64,000 bases of DNA, taken from contig JAJEAA010000020.1 of NCBI GenBank assembly GCA_022824365.1, positions 1-64,000 of the forward strand. Direction: 5' to 3'. Below are positions 20,054 through 25,395 of the stretch, in pieces. This DNA is from Anaerolineae bacterium (GTDB lineage: Bacteria; Chloroflexota; Anaerolineae; Aggregatilineales; Phototrophicaceae). The position numbers and the translations under genes were made by a program. The notes beneath the pieces are model-generated. The model made no database searches, was not told where the DNA came from, and saw nothing but the letters and a program-made list of their open reading frames with translations. Each line of letters begins with the position of its first letter. Within the stretch, counting starts at the first letter, position 1.

Positions 20054-20530
20054 CATTCCACAGAACGTCTGTATTTATATGGTCATTTGTATACTTAATG
20101 GAATGGTAATAATAGAATCGCGAACCGCAATCAATTCGTAGATCCGAAGACTCCTTTGAGATTCATGCACTCTCACGCTCCGCCCCGGTATGACCATCGA
20201 AAAAGCTTGCCTCTGCCCAAACTTAGAACATTCGTGCGTTAATTCAGGGCCGCATCCCAGCCCGCCTCGCCTCAATCCAATTCGACGAAAATACTTGCAA
20301 GCAGCAGCGAAATCTTATAGACTGTATAAATATAGCGAGTGCAACTTAAGTCGAGTCACTAGTCCACAAGAGCATGAAACAGTGATGCTGGTGCTGATAA
20401 GCTGAGCGCTGATCATCTCTCTGCAACTTCAGCGGCAGATTTACCCTCTTTTGCAGTTGAAAATTCGCGGGGGCAGCCTCGGATAATAATCTGAAACCAG
20501 CAGAAGTTTTTCTCTCCAGCTCCAAAGGCA

Positions 20531-20668
20531 GAGGAGAGGTGACCGCCTCTCCTCACAAGTGACCGACTAACGGTCATACCCGTTGTACTCTCAGGCGGAT
20601 CGGTCCGTGTTCGCGCAAGAGCCGATCCACCGAGCATCCGCGGCACCCTGCTTTTTCGGGTGTTCCGC
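20531..20668. ncRNA. Candidate structured RNA (leader and/or antisense RNA) of the replication gene
   Basis: Hairpins seen directly: GAGGAGAGG/CCTCTCCTC (20531-20539, 20546-20554); TGACCG/CGGTCA (20560-20565, 20571-20576); GGATCGG/CCGATCC (20597-20603, 20622-20628); GCGGCACCC pairing with GGGTG(TT)CCGC (20640-20668). Both strands fold equally. A minus-strand promoter at 20678-20706 would make an RNA complementary to the leader. No known RNA family was recognised. Confidence 0.5.
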
Positions 20669-20680
20669 TTGTCTTTTATT
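20640..20680 (+). terminator. Intrinsic-terminator-like hairpin upstream of the replication gene
   Basis: GCGGCACCC (20640-20648) and GGGTG-TT-CCGC (20658-20668) form a stem with a two-base bulge and a nine-base loop. TTGTCTTTTATT follows. It lies about 55 bases before the replication gene start, so it could act as an attenuator. Confidence 0.5.
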
Positions 20681-20706
20681 ATAACAAATTGCAGAAGGTT
20701 AAACAA
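20678..20706 (-). promoter_or_regulatory. Minus-strand promoter opposing the replication gene leader
   Basis: On the minus strand TTGTTT (20706-20701) and TATAAT (20683-20678) are separated by 17 bases. Transcription would run leftward from about 20671 through the hairpin region, away from the replication gene. Confidence 0.6.
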
Positions 20707-20736
20707 GCATTTGTGCGAAATAAAGGTTAAAGAACC

Positions 20737-24285: not shown

Positions 24286-25069
24286 AGATCCGCTCCTCCA
24301 ACTGCTCGACCAAGTGCCAGGCGTCCTCAGCCGTGCCGCTGCCAGGCGCCAGGGAAAAGACGGTGCGCCGGGCGCTGGCGACTTCGGTCCAAATCGTCCG
24401 GACCGGCAACGGCTTCCACACCAGGCTGCCGAAGGTGTCCTGCAAGCGGCGCAGGTTGTCTTGATGCTCAAGCGTTCGCCCGCGATACATCGTCGGAACG
24501 ACGCCGAGCACTTTGATATCGTTCAGATTATATTGCTGACGGATCGGGCTGAACTGATCCTTGTGCGTCAGGCTCTCGCGCAAGCCGTCAAAGCTCCATG
24601 CCTCGCATTTTGTCGGGTAGATGATGCCGTCAGTCGCCATATAGATGGAGGAGTGCAAAAGCGATGGGGTCGGCGAGGTATCGAAGAAGACGAAGTCAAT
24701 AGCGTTGCGCAGTTGGTTGAAGCGCTTGAGCACGGTGAAGGCGTCGGAGATATTGCCGGCGATGCTGCGCGTCTCAATATTTGAAGGCACCACCAGCAAT
24801 TGACCGCTCGTGTTATTCGCCTCATCGGGCACGTTGAAGCGCTCGGCCGGCACGGGCCGCAACACTTTCTGAAAAGGCGCGTTGCGCACGATGAGGTCGT
24901 AAAAGCCCGGCTCTTTTGATAACCCAAAGGCGATTGTCGCATGGCCCTGCGGATCGGCGTCAACCAGGATGACTCGCTTCCCCCGGATCGCCAGGCCAGC
25001 GGCCAAGTGAGTCGCGAGCGTGGTCTTGCCGACACCGCCTTTTTCATTGAGCAGTGTGATGATCTTCAT
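24272..25069 (-). CDS. ParA family partition ATPase
   Basis: 265-residue MinD/ParA ATPase. The deviant Walker A is EKGGVGKTT (9-17) with the signature lysine K10. VDADPQG (36-42) follows, and FVFFDTSPTPS carries the Walker B aspartate. There is no N-terminal helix-turn-helix extension, so it is of the short (type Ib-like) class. A separate winged-helix gene upstream could provide that function. It is co-transcribed with the 81-residue gene upstream (9 bp gap) and parB downstream (14-bp overlap). It moves replicon copies apart along the nucleoid. Confidence 0.93.
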   Translation of the reverse strand: MKIITLLNEKGGVGKTTLATHLAAGLAIRGKRVILVDADPQGHATIAFGLSKEPGFYDLIVRNAPFQKVLRPVPAERFNVPDEANNTSGQLLVVPSNIETRSIAGNISDAFTVLKRFNQLRNAIDFVFFDTSPTPSLLHSSIYMATDGIIYPTKCEAWSFDGLRESLTHKDQFSPIRQQYNLNDIKVLGVVPTMYRGRTLEHQDNLRRLQDTFGSLVWKPLPVRTIWTEVASARRTVFSLAPGSGTAEDAWHLVEQLEERIYEQP

Positions 25070-25078
25070 AGGGATGCC

Positions 25079-25324
25079 CTATTCTTGCGCGAATTTCTCG
25101 GTCAACGTGTAAACATAACCTGTTACACCATTATTAAAGGTAAATATATTGCGCTGGAAGGTGCCGTTTTCAACCAACTCGTCCATCATATTGATGAGAT
25201 GAGGGGTCTTCTTGCGGTTGAGCCGGTTGACGATTTCGGTGCGGGTGAGGGGTCGTTCGCTTTGCGCAACGATGTCTATCATCATTTGCCGCGTTTCGGT
25301 CAGCGGACGATGATCTTGAGACAT
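25079..25324 (-). CDS. Small winged-helix protein, probable regulator of the par operon
   Basis: 81-residue protein whose pattern (ETRQMMIDIVAQ, RPLTRTEIVNRLNRKK, then LINMMDELVENGTF and YVYTLTEKF) fits a winged helix-turn-helix: recognition helix, then a beta wing. It is the first gene of the par operon, with a promoter at 25367-25395. It probably represses the operon, as small DNA-binding proteins do in other partition loci; this is inferred from position. No specific family was recognised. Confidence 0.7.
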   Translation of the reverse strand: MSQDHRPLTETRQMMIDIVAQSERPLTRTEIVNRLNRKKTPHLINMMDELVENGTFQRNIFTFNNGVTGYVYTLTEKFAQE

Positions 25325-25366
25325 AAGCAGATACGCTCCGTCATTTAACTGTATAGATACTATGCA

Positions 25367-25395
25367 AGTATAACGGGATTATGAGCAGCGCGCAA
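25367..25395 (-). promoter_or_regulatory. Promoter of the par operon
   Basis: On the minus strand TTGCGC (25395-25390) and TATACT (25372-25367) are 17 bases apart, about 45 bases before the first par gene. GTATAGATAC at 25351-25360, near the expected transcription start, is an inverted repeat and could be an operator. Confidence 0.65.

Follow-up and report, generated by a model that had tools for sequence, protein, structure and literature searches.

A plasmid-type Rep/partition locus as a candidate replacement for DnaA in a genus in the family of Phototrophicus (Chloroflexota)

To our knowledge, DnaA counts as essential and almost universal among free-living bacteria, and the free-living exceptions without dnaA that we found in the literature are cyanobacteria. 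In the open-access literature, none of the matches listed describes a loss of dnaA in Chloroflexota. Excerpts of published accounts describe several systems that resemble parts of the locus presented here. Plasmid or phage origins integrated into the chromosome suppress defects of dnaA or oriC in laboratory strains of E. coli and B. subtilis (PMC4287441). Among the free-living cyanobacteria that lack dnaA, the two species examined replicate from multiple origins (PMC7198777). Vibrio cholerae NSCV1 and NSCV2 have fused chromosomes in which both origins are kept and ori1 is active (PMC6284228). The CyRepA initiators of cyanobacterial plasmids combine DUF3854 and DEXDc domains (PMC10079941).

The window analysed here is a stretch of 64,000 nucleotides, bases 1–64000 of a 323,160-base contig (G000:C16) in a draft genome (G000) of 4.18 Mb, which is divided into 37 contigs and is 93.65% complete. 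It contains a forward-strand gene for a primase-polymerase (Prim-Pol) replication protein, here called Rep, which converges on reverse-strand genes for ParB, ParA and a small ORF (Table 1). A first-pass annotation of the window had described a Prim-Pol rep gene convergent to a ParA/ParB operon with parS-like palindromes, flanked by rpmB on the left and by histidine genes on the right, and the family and motif matches bear out each part of this description. The histidine genes are hisB, hisC and hisD, located between about 38.1 and 41.4 kb of the window.

Table 1. Coordinates of the features discussed in the text, as positions in the window.
Feature	Coordinates	Strand	Evidence or remark
rpmB (ribosomal protein L28)	13367-13537	+	PF00830, E 4.4e-21; sole match in G000
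Intergenic region, candidate origin and leader	20054-20736	+	upstream of rep
Rep, primase-polymerase replication protein	20737-22761	+	674 aa; PF09250
parS-like palindrome 1	22801-22816	.	CGTTACACGTGTAACG, one mismatch
ParB-like partition protein	23077-24285	-	ParB_N PF02195, E 2.8e-7 on longer ORF
parS-like palindrome 2	23269-23284	.	CGTTACACGTGTAACG, one mismatch; within parB
ParA ATPase	24272-25069	-	AAA_31 PF13614, E 4.1e-30; PHROG ParA, E 3.5e-44
Small ORF upstream of parA	25079-25324	-	no PHROG match
UvrD/Rep-type helicase-like gene	29531-31669	+	PF00580, 33.1 bits (cut-off 23)

Residues 16–156 of Rep match the Prim-Pol family with E = 2.1e-18 and 67.7 bits (curated cut-off 22.8), and there is an additional PriCT_1 match. 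Four residues, D83, D85, H113 and D131, are unchanged in 40 homologues; conserved acidic and histidine active-site residues are the expected pattern of Prim-Pol (AEP) proteins. The N-terminal catalytic domain has the same fold as the Prim-Pol domain of the pRN1 ORF904 type. As the first-pass annotation had stated, Rep has no helicase domain, at least among the families of Pfam and NCBIfam searched at E 0.01. The proposal that the protein might define a new replicon family has to be divided: it does not apply to the N-terminal part, which is an ordinary pRN1-like Prim-Pol, and it retains some force for the remainder, where a weak winged-helix-like match is all that was detected. The C-terminal 400 residues gave no clear relative, a sequence search of the PDB with Rep reached a best E of 0.03, and the plasmid collection searched with Rep returned four weak matches, none of which covered more than 39% of the protein. 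Directly downstream of rep, positions 22872–23041 of the window are occupied by an interspersed repeat, of which C16 and G023:C32 each have a single partial copy; several contigs of a relative, G032, also have pieces of this type at their ends.

Comparison with the relative L033 indicates purifying selection on all three main genes of the module, with dN/dS of 0.18 for rep, 0.05 for parB and 0.02 for parA. Rep itself is the sole Prim-Pol match in its own genome. These observations bear on the possibility that a plasmid once integrated here and that its module persists as an idle relic, a reading suggested by genes of plasmid type in a region that may be chromosomal; partition genes, moreover, can be retained for other uses. 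An idle relic is nonetheless very unlikely in our view, given the low dN/dS values, the invariant catalytic-type residues, and a genome that possesses neither a second Prim-Pol match nor DnaA.

The start of parB was chosen by eye as the ATG at 24285 in preference to the TTG at 24471 of the longer ORF. The small ORF, a candidate for the winged-helix gene that the first-pass annotation had placed in the operon, has one Pfam match below cut-off, to a dimerisation domain (E = 0.0013). Beyond the two palindromes listed in Table 1, the 323-kb contig contains one further CGTTACACGTGTAACG site, with three mismatches, compared with 0–2 sites at that threshold in shuffled contigs, and no site with at most two mismatches was found away from rep on three long contigs. 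Exactly two such sites are present in 27 of the 30 rep loci scanned in relatives. The exceptions are L062 with one site, L073 with four, and L074 with none, the last being the second, distant Rep of G033. A second ParB-like protein, 44–47% identical, was seen in G023:C6, G009:C22, G031:C10 and G033:C21 in a search of eight genomes, and was absent from the window's own genome in the same search.

Rep is present in 32 of the 34 genomes of the genus, at 45–81% identity, and in a single copy except in G028 and G033. The first-pass annotation had proposed a check for co-occurrence of rep and ParB in other Chloroflexota, and within the genus 27 of the 32 rep loci that were read contain both par genes together with all three left-hand genes tested; the exceptions are two contigs of G028, which start at rep, and the loci of G008, G033 and G014. 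By eye count, the right-hand neighbour of the par operon is the UvrD/Rep-type helicase-like gene in 27 of 32 loci, and we speculate that its product could be a partner helicase of Rep. Genes for an oligopeptide-type ABC transporter (25505–29404) separate parA from this gene in the window, and are present in some members of the genus and not in others. The large genome of G033 (8.5 Mb, with DnaA) has seven Prim-Pol matches, on seven contigs.

The 27 conserved loci include members of the genus that possess DnaA. Synteny with dnaA-bearing relatives had been regarded in the first-pass annotation as an argument against a separate replicon. Such synteny does exist at the flanks of rep, and it speaks against a recent insertion, not against an origin function. 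At the same time, Rep is equally kept in the relatives with DnaA and hence need not be the initiator of the chromosome. The two genomes without Rep, the bins G013 and G031, lack DnaA and L28 as well; L28 occurs once in each of the other 32 genomes of the genus. For the 20-kb rep region, neither bin gave a match that could be considered real. G013 also has no ParB, and the only ParB-like protein of G031 is a 44% identical paralogue.

DnaA was searched for with the model TIGR00362 in 101 genomes, 67 of which gave a match over the cut-off. Full-length DnaA was not found with this model in 28 of the 34 genomes of the genus (drafts, 83–97% complete), including the window's own genome; the other six are G002, G005, G023, G026, G028 and G033. 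Matches over the cut-off were obtained in 24 of 27 genomes in the rest of the family, where the misses are G050, G053 (a fragment) and G059, with completeness of 74–88%, and in 37 of 40 other genomes of the order, with partial DnaA in the remaining three. A dnaA gene that had moved or diverged was considered and rejected: the window's own genome gave a single weak match, a tandem AAA+ ORF of 472 aa (G000:C18, L001 1183-2601), which is a better fit to IstB/loader-type ATPases (137 bits with IstB_IS21 versus 72 bits with Bac_DnaA). Weak double matches of this kind occur in many genomes of the family, whether dnaA is present or absent.

Twenty loci of the family were fetched, one of them (L128) without dnaA, and in 16 of the 20 a small divergent gene for SpoVS (E = 4.5e-36) is close to dnaA; within the genus, spoVS is present in all 34 genomes. 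The order spoVS, dnaA and a gene for a VWA-domain protein of about 961 aa is seen in five of the six genus members with DnaA; the sixth, G033, has dnaA beside spoVS, with the VWA gene outside the stretch read. In G000, 343 bp separate spoVS (C19:52745-53095) from the VWA gene (C19:53439-56294) on the same contig. This direct junction, hereafter the scar, was looked for in 32 genomes of the genus, all but G027 and G030. It is present in 25 of them, on one contig and with a spacing of 237–654 bp, and among the remaining seven are six with dnaA beside spoVS and one, G022, with neither arrangement. Since one contig carries the two neighbours side by side, the absence of dnaA represents a deletion and no assembly gap. 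Draft status and incomplete assemblies might by themselves suggest that dnaA was merely missed, but in view of the 25 intact junctions we discarded this explanation and give it practically no weight.

The motif TTATCNCA[AC] occurs 12 times in the six spoVS–dnaA gaps (2.43 per kb), and the 25 scars together have a single one (0.10 per kb); it is to be noted that the motif was picked after reading the gap of G023, one of those counted. The scar of the window's own genome has none. With the standard box TTWTNCACA the two groups cannot be told apart, there being one site in the six gaps with DnaA and none in the 25 scars. When the tree of the VWA protein is limited to the 39 rows whose dnaA state is known, the state changes at least four times. 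Placing the nine inner rows with DnaA in one clade is rejected with p-AU = 0.005, and placing the 25 rows without dnaA in one clade is rejected with p-AU = 3e-41. A wider tree of 61 rows has six changes, which amount to seven losses if dnaA is never regained and to five after weak forks are collapsed. Judging by these trees, dnaA was probably lost more than once.

If Rep starts the replication of the chromosome, as we infer, the region upstream of its gene would be the candidate origin. A promoter-like block, CTTGC...TATAGACTGTATAAATA, at about 20300–20330 recurs in all 23 upstream regions aligned, out of 28 (G008, G009, G016, G020 and G021 were left out); a promoter scan made three calls versus 2.9 expected, and left the block itself uncalled. 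The rep leader of the window's own genome folds strongly (RNA fold z of -4.42, with none of 100 shuffles as low) and includes a terminator-like hairpin at 20657–20671, the terminator scan having found 10 versus 5.1 expected. RNAalifold applied to the 23 upstream regions yielded one hairpin of five pairs. The leader and its hairpin are reminiscent of plasmid copy-number control. Iterons were not detected upstream of rep, no 10-mer being present three times in any of the 28 regions, and a TTWTNCACA-type site was found once in these regions, in G025 at the start of rep.

A skew inflection at 20–25 kb had been anticipated in the first-pass annotation, and the minimum of the raw cumulative GC skew of G000:C16 is in fact at 20,657, that is, at rep. 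The raw minimum of G030:C4, at 468,309, likewise coincides with rep, and G023:C32 has merely a local minimum near rep. Because the coding strand of the genes here is C-rich, gene orientation matters for the raw skew. After control for orientation, the skew at fourfold sites still shifts across rep: in C16, with 14 genes to the left, it goes from -0.091 to +0.041, in C4 from -0.032 to -0.012, and in C32 from -0.038 to +0.008. Changes that are equal or larger are seen at other places on all three contigs. Gene orientation thus explains much of the raw minima, and we do not use the GC skew as proof of an origin; the skew at rep is suggestive only.

The weakness of the controlled skew in two of the three contigs, and its uniqueness in none, fits the possibility that the chromosome, lacking DnaA, starts its replication at many sites or at no defined one, with Rep/Par acting only as a secondary origin or a partition site. 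The excerpts on dnaA-less free-living cyanobacteria with multiple origins provide a precedent (PMC7198777), and the bins G013 and G031, with neither DnaA nor Rep, fit the same picture. Against this arrangement stand the two contigs whose raw skew is lowest at rep, the purifying selection on rep and the retention of the gene in 32 of 34 genomes; we consider the arrangement unlikely, if still a serious competitor.

The first-pass annotation had left a choice between the origin of a chromid and an integrated plasmid, and our results favour a combination of the two. On the chromid side, plasmid-type replication and partition genes are present together with at least one core gene, rpmB, whose sole copy in the genome lies near rep. 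No tRNA was found on the rep contigs of G000, G030, G023, G009 and G032, in whose genomes 40, 44, 41, 39 and 45 tRNAs were found, respectively, and the 323-kb contig of G000 gave no Rfam match at the gathering threshold either. The tRNA-free surroundings of rep suggest a fused former chromid. When 114 core genes of E. coli were compared with three rep contigs (300–482 kb), fair identity was obtained for rpmB and hisBCD only, and weak matches for map and a second hisC. The same queries applied to 356 kb of family sequence (20 loci, of which 19 surround dnaA) returned strong matches for map and nadK and four weak ones, and the census is therefore a weak indicator, as loci around dnaA also produced two strong matches only. 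The three rep contigs share blocks in scrambled order, and the 323-kb contig has no exact overlap of its ends.

At least 11 homologues of Rep, among the best 120 of 212 matches, are located on contigs of 2.9–4.5 Mb. Three contigs, of 2,938,880, 4,471,480 and 3,922,237 bases, are common to the matches listed for Rep and those listed for the VWA gene (120 of 1355), and the identical sizes indicate that Rep and the neighbour of the dnaA scar are on one molecule in three genomes. None of the three is among the 120 of 7998 DnaA matches listed. Conversely, DnaA and the VWA gene share contigs of 2,851,834 and 3,251,857 bases among the matches listed, and these are not among the 120 of 212 listed for Rep; clusters at 90% can hide members, and both absences are suggestive only. 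The Rep of the 4.47-Mb contig is next to that of G015, which lacks dnaA, and none of the 11 homologues on large contigs falls in a clade with DnaA among the matches listed. The clades with DnaA have 15 listed homologues, and the largest Rep contig there is 1.19 Mb among the matches listed, a weak hint that the chromid-like replicon is perhaps still separate in these lineages.

Further information comes from G031, where one contig has both tRNAs and the scar. Between 540 and 760 kb of this contig, 30 of 96 ORFs in six samples have 60% matches to the three rep contigs, compared with none of 15 between 500 and 520 kb. The controls gave 0 of 14 in each of three dnaA regions, and 0–13 of 14–20 in six own-contig pieces.

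A separate chromid carrying Rep, rpmB and the his genes, next to a main chromosome without dnaA that is started by something else, was considered as the lead reading. It would explain why the rep contigs are free of tRNAs in five genomes, why they share scrambled blocks and have rpmB and hisBCD as their sole core genes of fair identity (weak evidence), and why rep, rpmB and the 20-kb region are missing together from G013 and G031, as if a whole replicon had remained unbinned. The chromosome-size Rep contigs shared with the VWA gene speak against it as the lead: several relatives have Rep on contigs of chromosome size, three of them with the former neighbour of oriC, and in G031 the chromid-type genes are on the same contig as tRNAs and the scar. 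We keep it as a rival of low probability.

The explanation that we favour, with modest confidence, is that a chromid-like replicon became part of the chromosome and that its Rep/Par core has replaced DnaA and oriC as the start of replication. Rep would bind its own upstream region and open it; its primase-polymerase domain would make the primer, after which a helicase of the cell would take over. Segregation of the new origins would be the task of ParA/ParB and the two parS-like sites. With the fused chromosome copied from the Rep origin, dnaA and oriC would become dispensable and could be deleted, more than once. A more specific history, to which we assign about even chances, would be the fusion of a chromid of about 1 Mb followed by repeated loss of dnaA and oriC, leaving a chromosome of 4–5 Mb that is copied from a Prim-Pol Rep origin, that is, a natural and fixed integrative suppression in a genus in the family of Phototrophicus. 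That fusion came first and the loss of dnaA second, and that the 323-kb contig of the window's own genome is likewise part of a fused chromosome, are inferences. The bins G013 and G031, which lack the Rep region as well as dnaA, count against a takeover by Rep. Even so, the plasmid-style Rep/partition locus is the strongest candidate for a successor to dnaA, and the presence of species with and without DnaA side by side, together with a candidate replacement initiator at a conserved position, makes initiator replacement directly testable.

Compared with known systems, Rep shares its N-terminal catalytic fold with pRN1 ORF904. The latter carries a helicase domain, whereas Rep has no helicase match in Pfam or NCBIfam. 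CyRepA, as described in the excerpts of PMC10079941, is also a plasmid replication protein with a primase-related part, but Rep has a Prim-Pol domain instead and matches no helicase family. V. cholerae NSCV1 and NSCV2 resemble the proposed history in that a main chromosome and a plasmid-type secondary chromosome are fused into one; both origins are kept there, while dnaA is gone here (PMC6284228, in the parts available). The dnaA-less cyanobacteria are similar in being free-living, in having related species that keep dnaA, and in having lost it independently; no plasmid initiator is named in the excerpts of that account (PMC7198777), whereas the genus described here has a conserved Rep/Par locus. 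A further parallel is integrative suppression as portrayed in the excerpts of PMC4287441, in which a plasmid-type origin in the chromosome stands in for DnaA and oriC, as it would here. The candidate initiator and the chromosome appear to be on one molecule in three relatives, by identical contig sizes, and may be so in the window's own genome; the difference from the laboratory strains is that the proposed function would be natural, fixed across species, and accompanied by deletion of dnaA.
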